Of a stretch of DNA of 34,894 nucleotides, positions 5,180 through 29,884 are shown piece by piece. The notes under the pieces were generated by a model. The model was not told the origin of the DNA. It saw nothing but the letters and a program-made list of their open reading frames with translations, and did not search any database. This DNA is from Bacteroidaceae bacterium (GTDB taxonomy: Bacteria; Bacteroidota; Bacteroidia; Bacteroidales; Bacteroidaceae): the NCBI GenBank assembly GCA_017464815.1, contig JAFTYI010000050.1, positions 1 through 34,894 of the forward strand. The letters run 5' to 3'. The translations under genes and the position numbers were made by a program. Within the stretch, counting starts at the first letter, position 1; each line of letters begins with the position of its first letter.

Positions 5180-8100
5180 TTATGCCGTTGCAAATTCCGG
5201 GTCGATGACATGGTGCAGCGTGTCGATGTATTTGGCCAGCGGTTGCAGGTAGGTGCTGAACACCGACAGTTTCTCGTCAAACGGAGCTTCGTTTACCACA
5301 ATCTCTTTGGTGATGTCTCCGTTTTCACAGACGTATGAGATGATTGTCATCAAAAATTCCTCCTGCTCGGCGTTCAGTTGCGAGCCTGAGATGAACGTGC
5401 TGAATCTTTCGACAGCCTCCCTCCTGTTCACTCCGATGATGGAGCGGATGAAGATGGCCACGTTTGCTCCGCATGGCATTCCCGTGGTGTACTTGTCATA
5501 ATCCTTTTTGTCGCCCAGTTCTTGCCACAGGATTCGTTCAAGCTCGCGCACATCGTCGCCGGTCAGTTGCTCCATGGAGTAAATTTTGTTCAACACGGGC
5601 AGATTCCTGTTTTCGGCCAGAAAGTCCATAATCTTCTGTTTGTACGAAACCTTGGTGACGATGCCCGTGCTCTCGCCTTCGTAGGAGATGACGTCCTCAA
5701 TGTCAACCACAAACCACTGGTTCTTTCCGCCAATGAGGAACTTGGTCAACTCTCTCAACTCCTCGCGCACCTTCTCCAGCCATGGCAGCGATGCATTCTC
5801 CCAGTACATGGGGGTGAGCACCTCGCGGATGGTCTCCATCTTTGCCTGAATCTGTGGAATGCTGGCTTTTCCTTGCAACTTCTCCGCCACAGTCTGCACA
5901 TTCTGTATGGTTTTGCCCGCACTCGCCTCTTTGTCCAATGCCGAGAGTTCAATGGCCAGCATCAGCACGTCGAACTTCTTGGCATTCTCGTCTTGTGTGT
6001 TCTTTGCCAACAGGGGAGCCACATCGTTCTTCAATGTCAGTGTATCCAGTTCCGACAGATAGACCCACGCCGCATCTTCCTTGAAGTGGCTCACTTGTTC
6101 CCATTTCGCTCTCACGGAGATATGGCTGTCGGACAACATGGCCACTTGTCCCTTCAGCAGTGCCTTGATGTCGTCGTGAAGTCTTTTTGTAAACTCATCT
6201 TCCTGATATTGCTGATGTTGCAAGTGGAAGGCTATCTCCGCACGTAGGCCGAACAACCGCTCAGTCAGCGATTTCACGTTGGCCACCTTCTGTCCTTTGG
6301 GATGCTTTCCGAAGAAGTCATAGTTGCAACACCAGTCGAAGACATAGAACTGAGTCTTGTCCCCATCGCCAAAGATACCTGGCGACAAGCGTGTGCCGCG
6401 CCCTATCATCTGCAGGAACTTAATCAGCGATTTGACAGGTTTGAAGAAGACCAGGTTCAACACGTCGGGCACGTCGATGCCTGTGTCGAGCATATCCACC
6501 GAAACGGCTATCTGTGGCTCGGCATCGCGCACCTCGAACTTGTCTATCAGGTCCTGTGCATAGGTCACGTAGTTGTCTATCAGCACACAGAATCCCGCGC
6601 CATATTCGGGGTACAGTGCGCCAAACCGCTCCACAATAAGTTCGGCATGTTGGTGGTTGTAGGCAAACACAATGCTCTTGCCTATGCGTTCGCCGCTCTG
6701 CACCTTCAGGCCGTTCTCCATCAGGTCCTGCAACACGGCATCAATGGTGTCAATGTTGTAGATGTAGTTGAATATCTCATGGTTATCAATGTCGCGCACA
6801 TATTTGGCCTTGATATATGGCACGGGGTCATCAGATGCCATCATTGGAAATTCGGTGAAGGCTTTAAAGGCCCTAAAGTCTTTAGGGTCTTTAGAGTCTT
6901 TAGAGTCTTTAAGGTCTTTAAGGTCTTTCGAGACCTTGAATTCTTTAAGTTCCTTACCCTCCTCATACTCCCATATTTTCTCCATCTGCTCCTTCTCCTC
7001 TTCGCTGAGGTTGTTGTATTTGATGCCCTCTTTCAGAATCATCGAGCCGCGTTTCAACACAGTCTCTCCCACCAGGTAGCCATCCGCAACGGCATCTTCC
7101 TTTTCGTATTCATAGTTAGGTTCGCCCTGCTCCATTTCAAAGATGTCGTAGGTTGACTTGTCCACCTGGTCGCGTGGTGTGGCGGTCAGTCCCACGAGCA
7201 TGGCGTCGAAGTAGTTGAAGATGGCTCCGTATTTGCCAAAAATGCTTCGGTGTGCCTCGTCGATGATTACCAGGTCAAACCGTCCCACCGAGAAGGGTTT
7301 GTCTTCCGTGTCGATGAAGTTTATCATCGTCTGGTAGGTCGAGAAGGTGATGCGTGCATTCAGGTCGCGTTCGCTTCCATCGTTCAGCACACAGGTGGTT
7401 TCGTTGGGCAACAGCTTCACAAAGTTCTTGTGTGCCTGCTTCACCAGCGAAGTGCGGTCGGCCAGGAAGAGCACGTTCTTCACCCATCCGTTGCGCTTCA
7501 GCACATCCACCAGTGAGATGGCCACACGTGTCTTGCCCGTGCCCGTTGCCATCACCAGCAGTCCTTTGCGGTGCTTCGTGTTGTAGTGTTCACACACCGC
7601 CTTGATGGCCATCTTCTGGTAGTACCGGTCAGTAATCTGGTCGTTCACGGTGAAGTCCGTGATGTCCTTGCGTCCACGCTTCTGAATCATCCGCTCCAAG
7701 TCCTCCTCGGTGTGGAAACTGTAGAGCTTTCGTGGCGGATAGCCCAGTCCGTCGATGACGAGTGTTTCGAAACCGTTGGTGTAGTATATCACCGGGCGCA
7801 CTCCGTAGCGGGCCTCCAGGCAGTCGGCATACAGCTCTGCCTGATGCTTGCCCTTGGTGGGCGATGCGGATGTCCGCTTGGCCTCAATCACCGCCAGCGG
7901 TTTTCCGTTGCTGCCGAACAACACGTAGTCGGCATATCCCACCCCGTGTGCATTGGGCATCCCTTGCAGCTCCACCTCGATGCAGGCTTTCGAGGGTTGC
8001 ACCAGTCCGTCGGTGTCCAGTATCTCCCACCCTGCTTCGCGCAGCATCAGGTCGATGTACATGCGGCGTGTCTCTGCCTCCGAGATGTCGGTCGGAGGTG

Positions 8101-8626
8101 CCTCTACCGGTGCTTTCGACTCAACAGCCGCTTTGTCGGCTGCTTCTATGATTTCGTCTGATGGTGCATAGGTTGCCCGTGCCGTGGGCACAACGGCCAT
8201 TTGCGCACTCGTCGGTATCAGTGCGCGGTCAAACGGCCGGATGTTTTCGATTACCTTCAGCTTGAGCAGGATGGCTGCTACTACATTATATATATTGAGC
8301 AGGCAGAAGAACGACTCCTTCCGGCTCACCGTGTCGGCATGGGCACCTCGATTACCCACCTTGCGCACATAGTGGACGGCCATCATCACCTTGTCGTCAC
8401 CGATAAACTCCTTGAACGGTTCGCCGTCCACCAGCTGAAACAGCGATGTCCTTTCCGACACCGTCAGGTTCTTCATCTGGTAGAGCGAACGCACCACGTA
8501 CTCCAATGCCCGACGGGCATTGACGGCGCTGATGTCGGGGTTGCACACCTGATTCTCTTCAGCTGTTGCGCAGAAGCGGTGCAGGTCAATCAGCTCCAGC
8601 TCTTTCAGGTAATCGAAGTTTCTCAT
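5180..8626 (-). CDS. hsdR: Type I restriction enzyme, R (nuclease/translocase) subunit
   Basis: A 1148-residue motor and nuclease subunit. In order: a DUF4145-like helical N-terminus (1-130), a PD-(D/E)XK nuclease domain with Asp233, Glu248 and Lys250 (YADYVL, AVIEAKR), then a superfamily 2 helicase. The helicase shows Walker A ATGTGKT at 360-366, DEAH at 456-459, TAT at 481-483, the DTGID motif near 715, and QMIGRGTR near 740. An EcoEI-type C-terminal helical domain closes the protein. All catalytic motifs are intact. Between the two helicase lobes, residues about 566-590 are a low-complexity run of Lys-Asp-x triplets encoded by a 9-bp DNA repeat that also occurs in the operon spacers. It is the last gene of the operon. 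Confidence 0.95.
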   Translation of the reverse strand: MRNFDYLKELELIDLHRFCATAEENQVCNPDISAVNARRALEYVVRSLYQMKNLTVSERTSLFQLVDGEPFKEFIGDDKVMMAVHYVRKVGNRGAHADTVSRKESFFCLLNIYNVVAAILLKLKVIENIRPFDRALIPTSAQMAVVPTARATYAPSDEIIEAADKAAVESKAPVEAPPTDISEAETRRMYIDLMLREAGWEILDTDGLVQPSKACIEVELQGMPNAHGVGYADYVLFGSNGKPLAVIEAKRTSASPTKGKHQAELYADCLEARYGVRPVIYYTNGFETLVIDGLGYPPRKLYSFHTEEDLERMIQKRGRKDITDFTVNDQITDRYYQKMAIKAVCEHYNTKHRKGLLVMATGTGKTRVAISLVDVLKRNGWVKNVLFLADRTSLVKQAHKNFVKLLPNETTCVLNDGSERDLNARITFSTYQTMINFIDTEDKPFSVGRFDLVIIDEAHRSIFGKYGAIFNYFDAMLVGLTATPRDQVDKSTYDIFEMEQGEPNYEYEKEDAVADGYLVGETVLKRGSMILKEGIKYNNLSEEEKEQMEKIWEYEEGKELKEFKVSKDLKDLKDSKDSKDPKDFRAFKAFTEFPMMASDDPVPYIKAKYVRDIDNHEIFNYIYNIDTIDAVLQDLMENGLKVQSGERIGKSIVFAYNHQHAELIVERFGALYPEYGAGFCVLIDNYVTYAQDLIDKFEVRDAEPQIAVSVDMLDTGIDVPDVLNLVFFKPVKSLIKFLQMIGRGTRLSPGIFGDGDKTQFYVFDWCCNYDFFGKHPKGQKVANVKSLTERLFGLRAEIAFHLQHQQYQEDEFTKRLHDDIKALLKGQVAMLSDSHISVRAKWEQVSHFKEDAAWVYLSELDTLTLKNDVAPLLAKNTQDENAKKFDVLMLAIELSALDKEASAGKTIQNVQTVAEKLQGKASIPQIQAKMETIREVLTPMYWENASLPWLEKVREELRELTKFLIGGKNQWFVVDIEDVISYEGESTGIVTKVSYKQKIMDFLAENRNLPVLNKIYSMEQLTGDDVRELERILWQELGDKKDYDKYTTGMPCGANVAIFIRSIIGVNRREAVERFSTFISGSQLNAEQEEFLMTIISYVCENGDITKEIVVNEAPFDEKLSVFSTYLQPLAKYIDTLHHVIDPEFATA
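6858..6929. repeat. 9-bp repeat array A, in frame inside hsdR
   Basis: Eight 9-bp units of the form nnGTCTTTA (plus strand) run through the coding region. The first two (6858-6875) and the last are degenerate. On the coding strand each unit gives Lys-Asp-x (Leu, Ser, Pro or Phe), so gain or loss of a unit changes length by three residues without a frameshift. The same unit forms arrays B and C in the two operon spacers. Confidence 0.88.
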
Positions 8627-8641
8627 ATTTTGTTTTTTTGA

Positions 8642-8731
8642 GGGTCTTTAGGGTCTTTAGGGTCTTTAAGGTCTTTAAGGTCTTTAGGGTCTTTAGGGTC
8701 TTTAAGGTCTTTAGAGTCTTTAAAGACCTTA
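8642..8731. repeat. 9-bp repeat array B, upstream of hsdR
   Basis: Nine units: GGGTCTTTA three times, AGGTCTTTA twice, GGGTCTTTA twice, AGGTCTTTA and GAGTCTTTA. An inverted unit follows (8723-8731), so the right end is a small palindrome GTCTTTAAAGAC. The array fills the spacer between the four-helix gene and hsdR. In the hsdR frame it reads TAA, so it cannot extend the protein. Confidence 0.88.
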
Positions 8732-8738
8732 TTTGACC

Positions 8739-9302
8739 TTACTTTCCATTGTTTCCATTATTCCTGTAATCTTTTCTCATTCTCATCATGCGTTCGCTGA
8801 AGCCGCCCTCTTTGATGAAGTCCTCCGACAGGCGTTGTATCTGCTTGTGCAGCAGATAGTCGGCTTGTTTCAGCAGTACAATGGCCATGTTGGCTATTGT
8901 TTCGGGCGGACGTGTGCGGGCCAGTTGCATGAAGTATTCACCATCGTTGTGCTCTTTGCCGATTCGGCGCATGGCTGCAAGCTCCACCGAGTCTTCTTCC
9001 CATTGGCGGTGGCTGTGGGTCTTCAGGTAGTCCTCATAGTCTTCGCGCAGTTCGTGCAAGCTGGCTTTTGCCACGTTGAGCAGCTTGAGTTCCGTCTTGG
9101 TCGATGTGGCCGAGGCCATACATCCCTCTACAATGTTTTGCTTCCCCGACCGTGCTGCCTGAATCATCTGATCCATCGTGCGGTCGCCCCGTTGCAGATA
9201 GGTGTGGCAAAAGTAGTAGGTCAGCTGAAATATCACATCGGTCTTCTGATAGCTCAGCAGCTTTTTGTAGTTGCCTCGTTGGGGAATCAACTCTTCGCTC
9301 AT
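8739..9302 (-). CDS. Four-helix-bundle protein with 'suffix' domain
   Basis: A 187-residue, all-helical protein. The region around residues 15-100 resembles the S23-type four-helix-bundle family. The C-terminal part (near residues 118-180) fits the 'four helix bundle suffix' extension (TIGR04258, recalled). No catalytic motif or membrane segment is seen. It is embedded between hsdS and hsdR in the same operon and flanked on both sides by arrays of the same 9-bp repeat. S23-family proteins are classically linked to 23S rRNA intervening sequences, but no rRNA lies here. The function is unknown; an accessory to the restriction complex is possible but unproven. Confidence 0.8.
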   Translation of the reverse strand: MSEELIPQRGNYKKLLSYQKTDVIFQLTYYFCHTYLQRGDRTMDQMIQAARSGKQNIVEGCMASATSTKTELKLLNVAKASLHELREDYEDYLKTHSHRQWEEDSVELAAMRRIGKEHNDGEYFMQLARTRPPETIANMAIVLLKQADYLLHKQIQRLSEDFIKEGGFSERMMRMRKDYRNNGNNGK

Positions 9303-9366
9303 GGTGTTTTCTTTTTTATGTTATTGTTTATAATTTCTTTTTCTTTTCTCTTTCTTAGTGTCTCTA

Positions 9367-9456
9367 AAGTCTTTAAAGTCTTTAAGGTCTTTAGGGTCTT
9401 TAGGGTCTTTAAGGTCTTTAAGGTCTTTAGGGGCCTTAGAGACCTTAGAGCCCTTA
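9367..9456. repeat. 9-bp repeat array C, between hsdS and the four-helix gene
   Basis: Seven good units (AAGTCTTTA twice, AGGTCTTTA, GGGTCTTTA twice, AGGTCTTTA twice) and three degenerate ones (GGGGCCTTA, GAGACCTTA, GAGCCCTTA) run in the same orientation as arrays A and B. It ends 16 bp from the hsdS stop. No start codon or stem clearly belongs to it. Confidence 0.85.
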
Positions 9457-9472
9457 GATGCTTTGCTCAATT

Positions 9473-10585
9473 TCAATCGAAGTAGTATTGCATTCTGCTG
9501 TTGAACAGCGTCTCCACCTCGGCAATCGATTGCTTTATCAGAGCCTTTTGCTTCTCAATGGCTTCGACCTTGGAGGCGAAGAGTTGTTGGAGGGGAAGAG
9601 GGGGAAGGATTGGTCTCCTCGCTCCCAATTCTTTGGCAGTAATAGCCATTTGTACACAATTACCACTTGTATTCTCATTTTTAATAACACTTGATAATAA
9701 TCGTACAAAAAATATAGGTTCGTATTTTTCTTCCTTAATTCTTATTTTCATTAAAGATGGATGTATGATACCAATAGGAGCATTTTTAGGAAGTCTATAT
9801 ATTTCTCCAATTGTACCTCTACAACTCATTATAAAATCTCCAGAATGTACTTCAAAACGTTTTAAGGCTTCAAATTTCTCTTTATTTATATAATGAGTTT
9901 CTACATTCAAGGTTTTCCTAATGGCGTGCTTTTGTTCATAAACCATGCAGAATGAATCGTTCTTATTTACATAACATTCGGTTTTGAGAGCACTACCGAA
10001 TGGACCAAGGAACATTTCAATAACAGATTCTTTCAATGGTGCAACCTCCCACCCTTTCTCATTTTCCACAGGGTCACCGAACATCTCATAGAAGATAGAT
10101 TGAGCAAGTGCATCGAGTTCCTTCAACTGCTGTTTCTTTTTCTCTATGATGCCGGAGAGGCTATCTAATTCGGAAACAATCTTTTTTTGTTCGGGGAGAG
10201 GGGCTGCTGGTATTTCGGATTCTCCATAATTTTTAAAATATATATGTGGAATTGTAGCTCCTGATGCAAATGATGCAAGATTTAGACTCTTTAATGCATA
10301 ACCCACATATTCAAGTAAATAGTCTTTTCTAGGCAATATATACTGCAAAGTTCCTAGTAAAGATGAATATGCTGGATATATGTTAACACGCCCAACTCCT
10401 GCACCATCTTTAACAATACCAATATAAGGACTATCTCTATGGTAGAAATTTACATTTTGAATATGTCCACTTGCACCATATACGGGATAATCACCATCGA
10501 TATTCGTAATCTTATTCTGTACAATGTTAGATGACGCTTTATCGCAAATATCCTTTATCTTCTTCACTTCCCAACCTTCTTTCAT
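9473..10585 (-). CDS. hsdS: Type I restriction enzyme, S (specificity) subunit
   Basis: A 370-residue DNA-recognition subunit. Two target-recognition domains are visible, roughly residues 1-130 and 185-330. Each is followed by a conserved helical spacer: PLPEQKKIVSELDSL near 134-148 and PLPLQQLFASKVEAIEKQK near 331-349. The repeated GWEVKKIKDI and GWEVAPLKES openings mark the internal duplication. The recognised site cannot be read from sequence. The recognition parts are clearly more AT-rich than hsdM and hsdR, typical of exchanged specificity domains. No second or inverted hsdS copy is in the window, so shuffling by inversion is not supported here. It starts 51 bp after hsdM. Confidence 0.93.
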   Translation of the reverse strand: MKEGWEVKKIKDICDKASSNIVQNKITNIDGDYPVYGASGHIQNVNFYHRDSPYIGIVKDGAGVGRVNIYPAYSSLLGTLQYILPRKDYLLEYVGYALKSLNLASFASGATIPHIYFKNYGESEIPAAPLPEQKKIVSELDSLSGIIEKKKQQLKELDALAQSIFYEMFGDPVENEKGWEVAPLKESVIEMFLGPFGSALKTECYVNKNDSFCMVYEQKHAIRKTLNVETHYINKEKFEALKRFEVHSGDFIMSCRGTIGEIYRLPKNAPIGIIHPSLMKIRIKEEKYEPIFFVRLLSSVIKNENTSGNCVQMAITAKELGARRPILPPLPLQQLFASKVEAIEKQKALIKQSIAEVETLFNSRMQYYFD

Positions 10586-10636
10586 ATCTTCTTTATTTCA
10601 AATGGGTTGATTACTTATACCGAACTCTGTATTCCT

Positions 10637-12133
10637 TTAACTGCGAATAATTGACTTCAAGCTCTCCATTGCCTCGGTAATCTGCTTTTCCAGCTCTCCG
10701 ATGCGGGCGAGGATGACGTCGGAGGCTTCGTACTCCACCCGTTCGCGCTCAATCTCCTTGTACTTGTTGATGGAGAGGTCGTAGCCCTTTTCGCGAATCT
10801 CTTCTACGGGGACAAGGAACGAGGGGTCTTTGCGTGTACGCTCCGTCTCGGCCTCGAGGTTGTGGAAGCGGGAGATGATGTCGGGGATGTCGTTGTCGGC
10901 CACGGGGTTGCGCTTGTCGTCGAGTGAGAATCCGTCGGCCTTCATGTCGTAGAACCACACCTTGTCGGTGCCGCCCGCGTTCGTCTTGGTGAAGATGAGG
11001 ATGGCGGTGGAGACTCCGGCATAAGGTTTGAACACGCCCGAGGGCATGGAGATGACCGCTTGCAGGCGTTGGTTGTCCACTATCTGCTTGCGGATGGCCA
11101 AGTGGCCCGTGCTGGTGCCGAAGAGTACACCGTCGGGCACGATGGAGGCACAGCGTCCGCCCATCTGAAGCATCCTGACGAACAGGGCCATGAAGAGCAA
11201 CTCGGTCTTCTTCGTCTTGGTGATGGAGAGCAGCGACTTGCTCACCGCATCGTAGTCGAGGCTTCCCGCAAAGGGCGGGTTGGCCAGACAGAGGGTGTAG
11301 CGGTTCTCGTCGGTGTTGTCGGTGGAGAGGCTGTCCTTGTACTCCACATCGGGGTTATCCACCCCGTGGAGCATCAGGTTCATGGCACCGATGCGCAGCA
11401 TGGTGGCATCGGTGTCGAAGCCATGCAGCAGGCCGCTCTTGTAGTGTTCGGCATTGCCGCGCTTCAGCATCTCCGACTTGTAGTGCTCCTGCACATACTT
11501 GGCACTCTCCACAATGAAGCCGGCCGAGCCCATGGCGGGGTCGCAGATGATGTCGTGCAAAGTGGGTTGCATCAGCTCCACCATCATGCGGATGATGTGG
11601 CGCGGGGTGCGGAACTGTCCGTTGTTGCCCGAGGCGGCCATCTTGCCCAGCACGTATTCATAGACATCGCCCATGGCATCGCGGTTGTTCATGTCGAGTC
11701 CGTCGATGCCGTCCACAATCTTGGTCAACGTGCGCGGATTCTGAATCATAAAGGTGGCATTGGCCATGAAACGGCTGTAGGCCGACTCCTTCCCGTCGCT
11801 GAGGTTCTTGATGAAGGCAAAGGCATCGCGGCTGATGATGCGGTACATCTCTTCGGCATCCTTGTGCTTGAACACGCTCCAGCGCAACGCCTCGTAGGGC
11901 ACTTCGCAGTCGGTTTCGGGATTGTGCCACGTGCCCTCCTTGAAGGTGGGGTCCTTCACCGCCACGCCCATGATGCTGGCGTTGGCCTCTTTGGTCTTCT
12001 GGGCATCGTCGAGCATCTTCATGAAGAAGAGGTAGGTCATCTGCTCCAGTATGGTGATGGAGTTGGTGATGCCGCCCGTCCAGAAGGCATCCCAAATGTT
12101 GTCTATGCGGTTTTTGATTTCTCCAGTAATCAT
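10637..12133 (-). CDS. hsdM: Type I restriction enzyme, M (DNA adenine methyltransferase) subunit
   Basis: A 498-residue N6-adenine methyltransferase subunit using S-adenosylmethionine. An N-terminal helical HsdM domain (1-130) precedes the catalytic domain. That domain has the QFRTPRHI segment (173-180), the cofactor-binding motif DPAMGSAGF (198-206) and the catalytic NPPF (285-288). A C-terminal coiled segment for assembly with HsdS follows (about 455-498). Size and motifs are normal, so the enzyme looks active. It is the first gene of the operon, about 68 bases downstream of a clear -7 element. Reading order is hsdM, hsdS, four-helix protein, hsdR. Confidence 0.96.
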   Translation of the reverse strand: MITGEIKNRIDNIWDAFWTGGITNSITILEQMTYLFFMKMLDDAQKTKEANASIMGVAVKDPTFKEGTWHNPETDCEVPYEALRWSVFKHKDAEEMYRIISRDAFAFIKNLSDGKESAYSRFMANATFMIQNPRTLTKIVDGIDGLDMNNRDAMGDVYEYVLGKMAASGNNGQFRTPRHIIRMMVELMQPTLHDIICDPAMGSAGFIVESAKYVQEHYKSEMLKRGNAEHYKSGLLHGFDTDATMLRIGAMNLMLHGVDNPDVEYKDSLSTDNTDENRYTLCLANPPFAGSLDYDAVSKSLLSITKTKKTELLFMALFVRMLQMGGRCASIVPDGVLFGTSTGHLAIRKQIVDNQRLQAVISMPSGVFKPYAGVSTAILIFTKTNAGGTDKVWFYDMKADGFSLDDKRNPVADNDIPDIISRFHNLEAETERTRKDPSFLVPVEEIREKGYDLSINKYKEIERERVEYEASDVILARIGELEKQITEAMESLKSIIRS

Positions 12134-13390: not shown

Positions 13391-16300
13391 TTATATTTCC
13401 TTGAGCAGACAGAGGTAGGCGTCTTCGAGGTTGGCCTCGACACGGACGGCGTCGGCGTAGGGCGGTTTCTCTATTGAGATGTAGCGCACGCGCACGCGGT
13501 CGGCCTCCATCATGTTGTTCACCACCATGCGGCTGTCGAGTTGGGAGAGTTCGGCGGTGCTGACGGTGAATGTCCACACTTTGTTCTCGGCCATGCGAAT
13601 CATGTCCATCGGTTCGCCGAAGTACTTCAGGGTACCACGGTTGATGACTACCACCTGGTTGCACGAACTGGCGATGTCTTCGATAATGTGGGTCGAGAAG
13701 ATGACGATGCGCTCGCGGCTGAGCTCTACCAACAGGTTGCGGAAGCGGATGCGCTCGCGGGGGTCGAGACCTGCCGTCGGCTCGTCGACCACCAGAATGC
13801 GGGGCAGGTGAAGCAGGATGAGGGCAATGCCCACACGCTGTTTCATACCGCCTGAGAAGGAACCTATCTTGTGGTTGCGGCGCTCGTACATGTGTACGGA
13901 CTTGAGCACGTACTCCAAGCGTTCGCGGCGGACCTGGTTGTCGGTGATGCCTTTCAGAATGGCCTGATAGTCGAGGAAGTCCCAGGCGCTCATGCCTTCG
14001 TACATGCCGAACTCCTGTGGCAGGAAGCCGATGAGGCTCTGCAGCTCCTCGCGGTATTCAAGGGTGTTCATGCCGTTGATGCGGATGGTGCCGTAGCTCT
14101 GGTCAAGAATGCCGGTGATGATGCGCATCATGGTGGACTTGCCGGCTCCGTTGGGACCCAACAGGCCGAACATACCTGTCTTGATTTCGAACGATACACC
14201 TCGCAGGGCCTTGAAGGGGGTGCGACGGCGGCCGATGATGGGGATGCTCTTGACAAGGATGAACCAGGTGCGGCGCCACTCGGCGAAGCGGCCGGTGAGG
14301 CGCTCGACATTGATGTGGTTGTCGTAGAGGTAGGCCGAGGTGAGGCTGATGGCAATGCCGAGTGCCCACAGGCACGACATGACGATGAGCCCCGAAGTGC
14401 CTATGCCACGATAGTGGAGGAACCACAGCGTGAGTACTGGGATGCCGAAGTAGACGATGCGATGGATGATGCGCAACACGCTCTTCCGGGTAGGGATGCG
14501 GTAGCCGATGTAGCTGCGCACCATGCCCCAGATGTGATAGACGCCTGCACTGACCGAGAGGGTCATGACAAGAATCCAGAACATGCTGTCGAGATAGAAG
14601 GCTGCCATGTAGGCAAAGAAGGCAAACACGGCCACTTGCCACAGGATGGGCAGGAAGTCGCCCAACTGATGGAACTGGCGGTCGAGCCCCAGGCGGCGAC
14701 GAATCTTGAGGCCGCTTATCCATTGGCGTTGGAACAGTGGGGCGCGGTCGTAGATTTTCACCAGATTGCGCACCTCGATGGTGATGGGTTCGTCCTTCCG
14801 GATGACATGGATGTTGGCCAACCGGATGGATGACATGATGAAATAGGTGCATCCGGGAATGAGGCACACGAGCACCATCAGATAGAGCAGCTGGATGAAG
14901 ATGCCGTCAACCTTGATGTAGATATAGAACAAGCCCAATGCGAAGATGATGGCATGAAGCGCGTGCAACGGGCGGCTGAGCGAGCGGTACCAGCGCAGGA
15001 TGTTCTCCAGCGAAAGGTATACGGTGGGAATCATCACCAGGGTGAGCACTGCCGAGAAGGAGAGACCGCCGATGACGGTGACGGCGAACGGGGCGCCTAT
15101 GGCACCGGCATAGTCGGTGTCGCCCATGGCCATGGGGAGCATGGCTATGACGGTGGTGACGGTGGTGATGAGGATGGGGCGCAAGCGTGAGAAGCCACTG
15201 GTGATGAGGGCACGGTGGCGGCCATATCCGCGTTGGCGGAGGATGCTTGCATAGTCGATGAGGATGATGCCGTTGTTGACAACGACTCCCAACAGGATGA
15301 GGAAGCCGGTGAGGGTGTTGGCATTCTGGAGGGGGTTGCCGGTGATGAGCAGGCCCAACAACGAACCGATGGCGGCCAACGGAATGGTGAAGAGCAGCAC
15401 AAAGGGGGTGCTCACCGACTGGAACACCGAGGCCAGTATCATGTAGATGAGGATGAGCGAGGCTATGATGAGGAACTTGAATTCGCCCATCGACTCGTTG
15501 GTGCGGTCGACTTGGATGGCAATGCCGCTGGGCAGATTATAGCCGGCAATCAGTTGGTCAATCTCGTCGTGATAGCCCTCAAGCACGTCCTTGGGCAGAT
15601 TCTCACTCTGGTCAATGGTGTAGGTGATGGTGATTTCGCGGTCGCGGTTCACGCGGTTGATGCGCGAAATGTCGCGTGTGTATTTGATGTTGGCCAGCGA
15701 AGAGAGTTCATGCAATCCGCCGTTGGCATCCTCGATCATCACCTTGCGCAAGTCGTCCACCGTCTTCGGGGTGTTCTGCAGCTTCTCTTCCTGTTCCTCA
15801 GTAAGGTCTTCCTTGATGACGATTTCATATTCGTCGGTTCCCAGTTTCAGGTTGGTGCCTGTGCTGAGTTCGCGTCCAAGGGAGCCAAGGGCGGAGGTGA
15901 TGTTCTGTCGGGAGATGTCGTACGAAGCCAATGTGATGGGGTCGAACGTGAGGTGTATCTCGCGACGGCGGCCCGGGTTGGTGGCCCATGTGGAGGCAAT
16001 GAAGTCCATCTCGCCAAGGTAGTAGCGGATGTCGTCGGCAATGACGTCCATCATGTCGAAGTCGGAACCTTTGATGATGATGCGTTCACTGCCGTCGCCT
16101 ACGCCCAAGAGGTCCATGAAGCCCGACATGGCTGATGCGGCCCCACTCTGTGCAGGCGCCGAAGCACCAGCGGTCACACGGGTGTAGATGTTGGGCAGAC
16201 GCACACGATGGTTCAGGTCGGAGATGATTTCCGAAATGTCGCGTCCGCCATTCTCGTGGTAATCCTCCTTCAACGTGAGGGTGATGGAGGCCTCGTCCTC

Positions 16301-18085
16301 GGCAATGCGGCTGATGATGTCCTCCTTTTCGGGGAAGCTGTCGAGCTTGGATTCGAGCAGGGTGACAATCTTCTCGGAGTACTCCAGGGTGCTGTTGGGG
16401 GGCATGGTGACGGTCATGGTCACACGGTCGCTGTTCACCATGCGGCCGGCATCGGGATTTTGAGAGAGGGCTATCATCAGTGTGCCAACGAGCACGACAA
16501 CGCATCCGACAATGGCGGCTGCCGGGTTGCGCAGGCAGGTCTTCAGCAAGACGGCATAAATCTGTATGGGGCGTTCGTTGATGGAGAACTTCTCGTGGAA
16601 GACACTCCTGCCCTGCCCTTTCTTCAGCATCACATAGGTGCTCATGGGGATGAAGAGAATGGCTACCAGCAACGAGAACAACAGGGTGGAAATGATGGAC
16701 ACACCGATGTGTTCGCCAATGAGCTTGATGTATACCTCGTCGGAGAAGAGGAAGGGCAAGAAGACGGTGATGGTCGTCAACGTGGCGGCAAAGATGGATT
16801 TCCACACTTCGCGTGTGCCTTGGATGACGGCCTCTTCGGGACTTTTACCCAAGGCGGATAGTCGGTAGATGTTCTCCAACACAACAATGCTGTTGTCCAA
16901 CAACATGCCCACGGCAAGCGCCAGACCTATGAGGGTGAGGCTGTTGATGGAAATGTCGAAGGTGTAGAACAGGTTGAATGCTGCCAGAATGGAGACGGGG
17001 ATGGAGAGTGCGATGAACACAACCAACCGGATGTTGTGAAGGAAGAACCACAGGATGATGATGGCCAGCAATCCACCGCTGACACCCAACTCAACCACTT
17101 GATTGATGTTATCCTCAATCTGGTCGGCTGAATTGGATTGGATGACCAGTTCGATGTCTTGTGGCATGAACTCCTGATTCAATTGGTCGATGCGCTGCTT
17201 GGCCCGGTTGGAGAGTTCCAACAAGTTTGTCTGGGCATCGTTGACCAGGGTGACAGAGATGGCCTCTTTGCCATTGACACGGCTCAATGTGGTCTCGTCC
17301 TTCAAGTCAAAGAAGATGGTGGCGATGTCCTTCAGATATACGGGGCCGGGGGCTACTATCACATTCTCGATTTCAGCAATGTGGTCATAGTTGGCGTCCA
17401 GGTGGACGAAGTAGCGCAGGTCGGGTTCGTTTACGTATCCCAAGAATGTGCGCTCCTGATTGTATTGCGAAAGCATCTGGCTGATGCGCGAGGGGGTGAT
17501 GTTCAGGGCGGTCAGTGCCGCTTCATTCACCCGTATCTCGATGGCCTTCTCACGTCCGCCATACACGTTGACGGCGGCTACGCCATCGATATTCTCCAAC
17601 TTGGGCTTCAACTCTTTGTCCACCAAACTACGCAGACGGTCGACACCGCCCGTGCCTCGCACCTGCAGGGTCATGAAGTTGTTGTTCACTCCCGTCACAT
17701 TGGCCTTTTCCACCGACACGGTGAATCCTTCGGGTAGCGAGGGAAGCAGATTGTTGACCCTTTCTTGTAACCTCAAAATGGTGTACTTCAAGTTCATTCC
17801 CTTGTTGAAGTCGATTTGCAAACGACCACTGCGGTTGCCGGCTTCTGACTCGATGCGTTCAACGCCTTCAAGCGTGCTCACCACTCCCTCCAAGGGAATG
17901 ATGACTTGCGACTCCATGTAGGCGGGATTTACATCCTGGCGGGAAGAGACTTGGATGTATAGCATGGGCAATTCTGCATTGGGAAGCATCTCCACCTTCA
18001 GGTATTTATAGGACACATATCCAAGCATGGACAAGGCTATAAATAGCATGCAGATTGTAATCTTTCTCGTTATGACGAATCTCAT
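13391..18085 (-). CDS. RND efflux pump fused to an interrupted ABC ATPase domain
   Basis: A 1564-residue inner-membrane protein. Residues 1 to about 1028 are a complete RND pump of the HAE1/AcrB type, including a TM4-like LLDNSIVVLENI with Asp397. The second carboxylate seen in AcrB is Asn398. Two more helices follow (about 1035-1085). A first ABC strand IEVRNLVKIYD then ends at residue 1113. The next 177 residues hold about four membrane helices, after which the domain resumes with FKALRGVSFEI at 1291. All ATPase motifs are present: Walker A 1310-1318, FSGGM 1410-1414, Asp1434-Glu1435, His1466. The tail after about 1480 resembles the tail of the operon's first ATPase. The reading frame is continuous, so this is unlikely to be two genes joined by a sequencing slip. 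Confidence 0.9.
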   Translation of the reverse strand: MRFVITRKITICMLFIALSMLGYVSYKYLKVEMLPNAELPMLYIQVSSRQDVNPAYMESQVIIPLEGVVSTLEGVERIESEAGNRSGRLQIDFNKGMNLKYTILRLQERVNNLLPSLPEGFTVSVEKANVTGVNNNFMTLQVRGTGGVDRLRSLVDKELKPKLENIDGVAAVNVYGGREKAIEIRVNEAALTALNITPSRISQMLSQYNQERTFLGYVNEPDLRYFVHLDANYDHIAEIENVIVAPGPVYLKDIATIFFDLKDETTLSRVNGKEAISVTLVNDAQTNLLELSNRAKQRIDQLNQEFMPQDIELVIQSNSADQIEDNINQVVELGVSGGLLAIIILWFFLHNIRLVVFIALSIPVSILAAFNLFYTFDISINSLTLIGLALAVGMLLDNSIVVLENIYRLSALGKSPEEAVIQGTREVWKSIFAATLTTITVFLPFLFSDEVYIKLIGEHIGVSIISTLLFSLLVAILFIPMSTYVMLKKGQGRSVFHEKFSINERPIQIYAVLLKTCLRNPAAAIVGCVVVLVGTLMIALSQNPDAGRMVNSDRVTMTVTMPPNSTLEYSEKIVTLLESKLDSFPEKEDIISRIAEDEASITLTLKEDYHENGGRDISEIISDLNHRVRLPNIYTRVTAGASAPAQSGAASAMSGFMDLLGVGDGSERIIIKGSDFDMMDVIADDIRYYLGEMDFIASTWATNPGRRREIHLTFDPITLASYDISRQNITSALGSLGRELSTGTNLKLGTDEYEIVIKEDLTEEQEEKLQNTPKTVDDLRKVMIEDANGGLHELSSLANIKYTRDISRINRVNRDREITITYTIDQSENLPKDVLEGYHDEIDQLIAGYNLPSGIAIQVDRTNESMGEFKFLIIASLILIYMILASVFQSVSTPFVLLFTIPLAAIGSLLGLLITGNPLQNANTLTGFLILLGVVVNNGIILIDYASILRQRGYGRHRALITSGFSRLRPILITTVTTVIAMLPMAMGDTDYAGAIGAPFAVTVIGGLSFSAVLTLVMIPTVYLSLENILRWYRSLSRPLHALHAIIFALGLFYIYIKVDGIFIQLLYLMVLVCLIPGCTYFIMSSIRLANIHVIRKDEPITIEVRNLVKIYDRAPLFQRQWISGLKIRRRLGLDRQFHQLGDFLPILWQVAVFAFFAYMAAFYLDSMFWILVMTLSVSAGVYHIWGMVRSYIGYRIPTRKSVLRIIHRIVYFGIPVLTLWFLHYRGIGTSGLIVMSCLWALGIAISLTSAYLYDNHINVERLTGRFAEWRRTWFILVKSIPIIGRRRTPFKALRGVSFEIKTGMFGLLGPNGAGKSTMMRIITGILDQSYGTIRINGMNTLEYREELQSLIGFLPQEFGMYEGMSAWDFLDYQAILKGITDNQVRRERLEYVLKSVHMYERRNHKIGSFSGGMKQRVGIALILLHLPRILVVDEPTAGLDPRERIRFRNLLVELSRERIVIFSTHIIEDIASSCNQVVVINRGTLKYFGEPMDMIRMAENKVWTFTVSTAELSQLDSRMVVNNMMEADRVRVRYISIEKPPYADAVRVEANLEDAYLCLLKEI

Positions 18086-28425: not shown

Positions 28426-29214
28426 TCATTCCTTGAACACCTGGCGGATGCATCCGTAGGCGTCGAATGTCTTGCGGGTGCCCAGCCACAGGGTTATCAT
28501 CAGCGAGAGGATGGAGGCCGCCACGGTGATGACGATAATCATCATTTGGTACTTGATGGCCACGTTGGGCGACGAGCCTCCGAGGATTTGCCCGATCATC
28601 GTGCCCGGCAAGGCCACAAGGCCCATCACCGCCATGTTGGCAATGGCGGGGCTGAAGGCTTTGATGATGGCTTCGCGCACAAAGGGGGCGATGGCTTCGA
28701 AGCGCGATGCTCCGTTGCCAAGGAGGTAGTAGTAGAGCTGTCTGTCGCGCATCAGATTGGTGTAGAAGGTGTTCAGGGCAATGACGTTGCTCGAGAGCAT
28801 GTTGCCCATGAGGATGCCGAAAATGGGTATCATGTATTGGGCACCGAAGATGTTGTCGAGTTGCAACACCACCCCCAAGAAGTAGAGCCCCACGAGGATG
28901 GCCGAAGCCAGAAACCCCACGATGAGGGGCAACATGAGGATGCTGCGCTTGAGGCGCGTGCGCGAAAGGGCCGTCTCGGTGGCCACATACACCATGATGA
29001 ACACCCACAGGAAGTTGATCCACGGATTGTCCCACAGGAAAAGGTACTTCAGGTAAATGCCTATAAGAAAAAGTTGCACCACCATGCGGACGGCTCCCAC
29101 GACGGTGGCCTTCACCAGCCCCGTCTTGAACCGGTGAAAGAAGCAGATAGGCACGAGCAGGAGCAACATGCCGATGCCCAATCCCCAATAGCTGATGTCA
29201 ATCGTTGTACCCAT
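28426..29214 (-). CDS. fetB: FetB-like ABC permease (UPF0014 family)
   Basis: A 262-residue membrane protein with about seven helices. Family segments are visible: GAVRMVVQLFLIG near 40-52, PIFGILMGNMLSSNVIALNTF near 130-150, GASRFEAIAPFVREAI near 175-190, and VMGLVALPGTMIGQILGGSSP near 200-220. FetAB in E. coli exports iron and helps resist oxidative stress; the substrate here is not shown. It follows its ATPase partner by 25 bp. Confidence in the family is high, in iron as substrate moderate. Confidence 0.88.
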   Translation of the reverse strand: MGTTIDISYWGLGIGMLLLLVPICFFHRFKTGLVKATVVGAVRMVVQLFLIGIYLKYLFLWDNPWINFLWVFIMVYVATETALSRTRLKRSILMLPLIVGFLASAILVGLYFLGVVLQLDNIFGAQYMIPIFGILMGNMLSSNVIALNTFYTNLMRDRQLYYYLLGNGASRFEAIAPFVREAIIKAFSPAIANMAVMGLVALPGTMIGQILGGSSPNVAIKYQMMIIVITVAASILSLMITLWLGTRKTFDAYGCIRQVFKE

Positions 29215-29239: not shown

Positions 29240-29884
29240 TTATCCCATCACCACCCTTCTGTCGCACCCCTCCATGAAGGCCGTGTCGTGGCTTACGGTC
29301 AAAATGGCTCTGCCTCCATTGCTGAAAGGCAATCGTTGGATGAATTGCAGCACCTTCTGCGTCGAAGCAGGGTCGAGAGCCGAGGTCGGCTCGTCGAGGA
29401 GGATGAGCGGTTTCTCCTGCATGGCGGTGATGGCTAGCAGGATGCGCTGGCGTTGTCCGCCCGAAATCTCGTGCAGGCGCTTGTCCAGCAATCCCTTGTC
29501 CAACCCCAGTGCGTCGAAGTGCTGGAGCAGGGTCTCCTCCGAAAAGCCCGCCCCCCTGTTCACCCTCAGGTCGAAGGGCAGGCCCACCATCTCCCTCACC
29601 CACTCGCAAGGCAGCGAGAGGCCCTGAGGCATCCACGCCACCCGGTGGCGGATGAAGGTGGCCGTGTGGGGAGTCAGCTGGAAGCCATCCACGCTGATGC
29701 TCCCTTGGCAAGGGGTGGCAAACCCCATGACGGCCTTCAGCAACGTGGTTTTCCCACATCCCGAAGAGCCGGTGAGGCAGACGACCTCTCCCCTCTTCAC
29801 ATGCAGGTTCATATCCGTGAAAAGGGTCGTCTGTCCGAATCGTATGCTCAAGTTTTCAATCCGCAGCATGGCCTCTGTTTTCAA
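29240..29884 (-). CDS. fetA: FetA-like ABC ATPase
   Basis: A short, 214-residue ABC ATPase. Walker A GSSGCGKTT is at 39-47, the signature ISGGQ at 140-144, Walker B ends in Asp164-Glu165 (LILLDEPTSALDP), and the switch is His199. The compact size and the adjoining UPF0014-family permease identify the FetAB pair. An internal Met at residue 6 (MLRIENL) is a possible start. It is divergent from the xylanase gene, with a 281-bp intergenic region. Confidence 0.87.
   Translation of the reverse strand: MKTEAMLRIENLSIRFGQTTLFTDMNLHVKRGEVVCLTGSSGCGKTTLLKAVMGFATPCQGSISVDGFQLTPHTATFIRHRVAWMPQGLSLPCEWVREMVGLPFDLRVNRGAGFSEETLLQHFDALGLDKGLLDKRLHEISGGQRQRILLAITAMQEKPLILLDEPTSALDPASTQKVLQFIQRLPFSNGGRAILTVSHDTAFMEGCDRRVVMG

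Follow-up and report, generated by a model that had tools for sequence, protein, structure and literature searches.

A conserved RND-ABC fusion protein, with a membrane insert in its ATPase domain, in a seven-gene cluster of some Bacteroidota

The window analyzed here is a stretch of 34,894 nucleotides from a Bacteroidaceae genome, represented by a draft assembly of 58 contigs that is about 79% complete. Its minus strand carries a conserved cluster of seven genes, encoding an ABC ATPase (P0002), an ABC-2 permease (P0004), a TolC-like factor, an adaptor, an RND permease (P0003), a chain in which an RND permease is fused to an ABC ATPase, and a six-helix protein (Table 1). This cluster is missing from the preliminary description of the same DNA.

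Table 1. Genes of the cluster and parts of the fusion gene, with fusion genes from two other loci
Feature	Length or residues	Coordinates	Strand	Remarks
Separate ABC ATPase, P0002	297 aa	27374..28267	minus	
ABC-2-type membrane protein, P0004	1126 aa	23970..27350	minus	Large C-terminal part ending in Golvesin_C
TolC-like outer membrane factor	513 aa	22424..23965	minus	Pfam OEP
Periplasmic adaptor	352 aa	21295..22353	minus	RND_mfp, over cut-off
Second RND permease, P0003	1048 aa	18135..21281	minus	
RND-ABC fusion gene	1564 aa	13391..18085	minus	
RND permease part	1-1026	15008..18085	minus	Pfam ACR_tran
Linker	1027-1100	14786..15007	minus	Two predicted helices
First ABC strand	1103-1113	14747..14779	minus	Contains invariant Tyr1112
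Membrane insert	1114-1290	14216..14746	minus	Four hydrophobic helices, basic flanks
Remaining ABC nucleotide-binding domain and C-terminal tail	1291-1564	13394..14215	minus	
Seventh gene	234 aa	12595..13299	minus	Six hydrophobic segments; directly downstream of fusion
RND-ABC gene of L131		6917-11605		Lacks usual upstream genes
RND-ABC gene of L137		6536-11263		Lacks usual upstream genes

The preliminary description had claimed that an RND pump and an ABC nucleotide-binding domain share one unbroken frame of 1564 residues, and this frame is indeed free of stop codons in the window. Pfam assigns residues 2-1026 to ACR_tran (532.7 bits against a cut-off of 28; profile positions 3-1020 of 1021) and residues 1294-1438 to ABC_tran (91.1 bits against a cut-off of 25). 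The RND part falls below the curated cut-off of every NCBIfam RND model shown, as does the ordinary RND permease P0003. Membrane acidic residues of the fused RND part are kept among relatives, D397 in 70 of 71 sequences and D944 in all 71, and the counterpart residue in P0003, D417, is present in 67/67. We take D397, located in helix 4, to be the likely equivalent of Asp407 in the proton relay of AcrB. The structure model also has two extra helices, at approximately residues 1038-1058 and 1062-1086, that follow the RND part and precede the first ABC strand; these were absent from the preliminary description. That account had correctly placed the split in the ABC domain, however, with IEVRNLVKIYD ending at residue 1113 and FKALRGVSFEI starting at residue 1291. 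The contrast it drew with the paralogous ATPase also stands, in that P0002 has the same strand and no insert after it. A regular expression search in which 77 of 80 loci were visible, 71 of them with the strand motif, gave a spacing of 181-188 residues between this motif and KALRG.

The roughly four membrane helices that had been claimed for the 177-residue insert are matched by hydrophobic segments at residues 1147-1165, 1171-1189, 1202-1220 and 1233-1251, and the structure model has helices at 1141-1164, 1168-1196, 1198-1225 and 1230-1255. The share of relatives whose inserts have four segments depends on the hydropathy threshold, with 45/80 at 1.35 and 67/80 at 1.0. Among 71 sequences, the inside loops after the linker helices carry a mean of 11.9, 4.7 and 11.7 Lys plus Arg residues, compared with 0.1, 0.8 and 0.3 in the outside loops, although the inside loops are much longer and the comparison therefore describes a pattern rather than a test. 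This charge pattern places the ATPase on the cytoplasmic side, and not outside. In two variants from a single genus (L197 and L198), the insert is shortened to 112 residues and has about two hydrophobic segments (at a threshold of 0.8, 2 and 2; at stricter thresholds, 1 and 2). These variants fit a cytoplasmic ATPase because a change from four segments to two would leave the side on which the ATPase lies unchanged. Loci L195 and L196 have a longer insert, in which mostly hydrophilic residues are added to the first cytoplasmic stretch.

The interrupted domain has the features expected from the claim that its catalytic motifs are intact. Walker A (residues 1310-1317 in the window), the Q-loop (1356-1360), the signature (1410-1417), Walker B (1433-1442) and the switch His (within 1464-1467) are present in all 71 full-length sequences, the window included. 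In searches with the AlphaFold model of the ATPase (mean pLDDT 78.3, pTM 0.51), all 50 listed structural matches, which are ABC proteins, begin at or before the pre-insert strand. Because every one of these matches includes residues 1103-1113, the strand appears to be part of the ATPase fold, and the model suggests that the two split pieces come together as one ABC fold. The structural matches include TM_1403 and chains of NosDFY, the best PDB sequence matches are ABCA proteins, and the GldA and DrrA models match below their cut-offs. Mean identity is 82% around the first strand versus 46-49% in the insert and linker (46% for the insert). Tyr1112 is presumably the A-loop aromatic residue, and because it sits just before the insert, the membrane helices would be tied to the nucleotide site.

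The fusion is conserved across several families of the order, and is also found in another order and another class. A search with the full protein recovered full-length copies from four other genomes of the same genus (86-92% identity) and from other families (G059, 68%; G043, 48%), with partial copies in G047, G050, G058 and G018. With a profile of the linker plus insert, matches were obtained in 52 of the order's 393 genomes and in 6 of 395 genomes sampled from the whole phylum, four of these 6 being outside the order. For two orders examined further, the counts were 5/164 genomes with this profile and 2/198 with a C-terminal profile. No unfused orthologue was among the matches listed in the full-protein search, where the next RND matches had about 22-30% identity, and no match was found in the plasmid collection searched.

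For named genomes, a relative was encoded in 253 of 382 candidate stretches, and locus counts lean towards close relatives because the best 80 of these 253 were kept. Redundancy filtering left 54 of the 76 usable loci in sets A3 and A4, to which the window was added. The fused frame exceeds 1500 codons in 70 of the best 80 relatives; nine of the remaining frames start at a contig end (L066 included), and that of L124 is broken into pieces. L066, also at a contig end, and L124 hold broken-frame copies of the fusion gene that reflect decay or assembly error. Relatives with a C-terminal part 56-92% identical keep the architecture. Among the 52 genomes that match the linker-plus-insert profile, the frames below 1500 codons that were traced (G047, G058, G123, G172, G296, G312 and G316) correspond to contig ends. 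An assembly or frame artefact that joined two adjacent genes might be entertained given the 58-contig draft and the broken frames of L066 and L124. We give this reading almost no weight and regard it as refuted, because 70 of the best 80 relatives, named isolates such as Bacteroides faecis and Parabacteroides gordonii among them, have the same frame, as do members of another order and another class. It is this continuity in the sequences of relatives that bears out the preliminary description on the integrity of the frame.

The neighboring genes are also conserved. The order permease (P0004 type)-TolC-adaptor-RND-RND-ABC is present in 62 of 80 loci, and 15 of the other 18 have too little sequence to display it (9 begin in the fusion gene, 4 in the RND gene and 2 in the TolC gene). 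Three loci with enough sequence are exceptions: L096, which is without a permease match, and L131 and L137, which are without any upstream cluster neighbor. Outside the order, the complete six-gene order is found in all three genomes that could be read far enough (L199, L200 and L201). An orthologue of P0002 was present in all 21 genomes searched, at 70-94% identity, and in 19 of these it lies on the same contig at a distance of 13.7-14.2 kb. In the draft genome with L131 (G1141), P0002 is on another contig and there is no close P0003 (best match 32%). In the draft with L137 (G1142), a P0003 orthologue is on another contig (62%) and P0002 was not found; P0002 was likewise not found in the draft with L096 (G1144). 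Upstream of P0002, no other family was common to more than 3 of 15 stretches (the window plus 14 others, two of them short). In the window, the cluster is adjoined, outside its limits, by genes for a FetB-like permease (UPF0014; 28426-29214, minus strand) and a small ABC ATPase frame (approximately 29240-29884, minus strand). Type I restriction-modification genes (HsdR, specificity subunit and methylase) occupy 5180-12133 on the minus strand, and among them is a gene at 8739-9302 for a small protein like those of 23S rRNA intervening sequences, with a match below the Pfam cut-off.

In their N-terminal part, relatives of P0004 match the Pfam model ABC2_membrane_2 in 8/8 cases at an E value of 1 or better (best 2.9e-08), and the window member matches at E 0.0051, with 16.5 bits and below the cut-off of 27.2. 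A PDB sequence search with the C-terminal part of P0004 gave nothing better than E 0.61. Proteins resembling P0004 are annotated with an M1 peptidase part. An active peptidase was rejected, as the window protein and the complete proteins of L199, L200 and L201 have no HExxH motif. This motif occurs in one of 63 partial P0004 frames, a count that says little because these frames cover the protein end only.

The seventh gene belongs to a family of approximately 237 residues that adjoins the fusion in 76 of 78 cases, which comprise the window and 77 of the 80 loci (three have fewer than 600 bases downstream). No copy was found beside the fusion in L108 or L131. Searches of eight genomes, including those with both short-insert variants and two from outside the order, gave a single match at E 0.01 in each genome, always beside the fusion, and L137 keeps the gene despite its missing upstream neighbors. 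In set A5, which comprises the window copy and 36 of the 75 seventh genes from other loci, weak ABC-2 matches in Pfam were restricted to ABC2_membrane_3 in 2/37 (best E 0.0042) and ABC2_membrane_2 in 1/37 (E 0.065), and unrelated models match as many of the 37 members or more (Peptidase_M50, 5; Acyl_transf_3, 3, best E 7.1e-06; PspC, 11). The window member matches an acyltransferase model below the cut-off. NCBIfam matches are weak and mixed, with no ABC-2 model among them. The profile of the family did not match the membrane part of P0004 (0.1% by hhalign), the insert profile compared with the seventh gene gave 0.4%, and a PDB sequence search with the seventh gene gave a best E value of 0.68. 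Given its six hydrophobic segments, which give it the outline of a small ABC-2 permease, and its position, we propose the seventh gene product as a candidate ABC-2-type membrane partner for the fused ATPase.

Within the window genome, the nearest paralogue of the fused ATPase is P0002, whose matches are headed by the fused ATPase (42% identity, 237.7 bits; the next match has 119.6 bits). A tree of 66 rows places the fused ATPases in a clade (100/99) inside the starred group (99/96) that they share with the P0002 family, although one row on the P0002 side is very long-branched and the program warned that long-branch joins may be false. A block at residues 1444-1450, just after the D-loop, is common to both families, being at least 90% conserved in each, and is present in 0-14% of 21 other ABC rows from the window genome. 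The simplest account of these sequence relationships would be a duplication within the operon before the lineages split, and a wider sampling of ABC proteins could change the sister group.

Gene context suggests that the client of the fused ATPase is something other than the RND half of its own chain. Because the fused ATPase is the best genome match of P0002 and has a six-helix neighbor in 76/78 cases, it may power an ABC-2-type exporter that is held against the RND pump. We favor, at a little under an even chance, a conserved seven-gene envelope machine that probably draws on two energy sources. Here the fused ATPase would form a pair with P0002 and energize an ABC-2-type exporter that is tethered to the RND pump. 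The two RND permeases, one of them bearing the ATPase, would form with the adaptor and the TolC channel a proton-driven tripartite pump. The likeliest partner for the ATPase on the RND chain would be the operon paralogue P0002, and the paired ATPases would power an exporter formed by P0004 and the seventh gene product, the latter as a putative permease. The exported substrate would be passed to the RND pump at the pump's periplasmic entrance, and transport would be directed outward through a single supercomplex. The fusion, the linker helices and the insert might keep the ATPase flat on the membrane beside the RND domain and so make the two transporters inseparable. Evidence against this reading comes from the breaks in gene order at L096, L131 and L137, from the drafts G1142 and G1144 in which P0002 was not found, from the draft G1141 in which there is no close P0003, and from L108 and L131, where the seventh gene is missing beside the fusion. 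The weak and mixed model matches of the seventh gene, the long-branched row in the tree and the scores of the ATPase model also count against it.

The partner of the fused ATPase could be different. Because both ATPases have complete motifs, each could homodimerize, which argues against the pairing with P0002. If the fused ATPase did so between two RND-ABC chains, it would drive an exporter of its own together with a pair of seventh gene products, and P0002 and P0004 would form a separate exporter encoded by the same operon. The fused ATPase does carry the motifs of both active-site halves. Moreover, the seventh gene, whose single matches always lie beside the fusion in the eight genomes, may be more closely linked to the fusion than the upstream genes are, as L137 keeps this gene without them in a genome where P0002 was not found. 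However, the fused ATPase is a close paralogue of P0002, with which it occurs in 21/21 genomes and has the post-D-loop block in common, and in L131 the fusion stands without the seventh gene. We consider homodimerization rather doubtful.

The preliminary description had instead raised a coupling of ATP hydrolysis to the proton-driven pump. In a reading of this kind, which includes a purely regulatory version, ATP binding or hydrolysis would directly drive or gate the RND cycle, through the linker and the insert helices beside RND helix 12. Covalent linkage, motifs kept in 71/71 sequences and the invariant Tyr1112 just ahead of the insert are all consistent with such coupling, and SecA and SecDF offer a precedent for ATP-driven and proton-driven steps in one pathway (PMC8277102). 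Yet direct action would leave the seventh gene and the co-conserved P0002 and P0004 unexplained, and an insert that can be shortened (L197 and L198) and has a mean identity of 46% is unlike a finely tuned coupling domain. We judge it unlikely. Tethering alone would also explain a conserved fusion, with an ATPase domain that serves only to localize or assemble the machine and whose hydrolysis is dispensable. This scaffold role seems very improbable to us, as the retention of five motifs in 71/71 sequences is unexpected without hydrolysis.

It is possible, although somewhat short of an even chance, that the cluster encodes a two-energy trans-envelope exporter. In such a machine, an RND pump and an ABC-2-type exporter would be permanently joined via the RND-fused ATPase, which would be threaded through the membrane after its first strand and before its second, and a single complex would apply both ATP hydrolysis and proton flux to one substrate.

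The component families are known, and the chain as a whole fits no single one of them. Like RND tripartite pumps, the cluster combines two RND permeases, an RND_mfp adaptor and a TolC-like factor in one operon, with conserved membrane acidic residues; unlike those pumps, one RND chain here bears two extra helices and an ABC ATPase. ABC-2-type exporters (GldA/DrrA-like, NosDFY, TM_1403 and ABCA) resemble the system in the model, structure and sequence matches of the ATPase and in the ABC2_membrane_2 matches of P0004 relatives, but here the ATPase forms part of an RND chain and has a membrane insert between its first strand and the rest of the domain. SecA is another kind of ATPase, and SecA and SecDF differ from the fusion in being separate proteins that act in protein export. 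Their ATP-driven and RND-type, proton-driven steps are described as serving one pathway (PMC8277102). MacAB-TolC is described as an ABC motor that works with an adaptor and TolC (PMC5985334), and MacB as having its ATPase fused to its own permease domain (PMC8277102). The MacB ATPase, unlike the fused ATPase here, is not joined to an RND pump.

Among the titles and opening lines of abstracts listed by searches of open-access literature, we found no description of an RND-ABC fusion or of an ABC domain split by membrane segments. Proteins with this fusion are very likely already present in databases, labeled with RND names, so the sequence itself need not be new. As a rule, RND and ABC exporters are regarded as distinct classes with different energy sources, and here a conserved chain, with gut commensals among its hosts, unites both. 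The fusion would allow a direct test of whether an ABC exporter hands its substrate over to an RND pump. If the proposed fold is true, then two pieces that flank a membrane segment can together make up an ABC nucleotide-binding domain.
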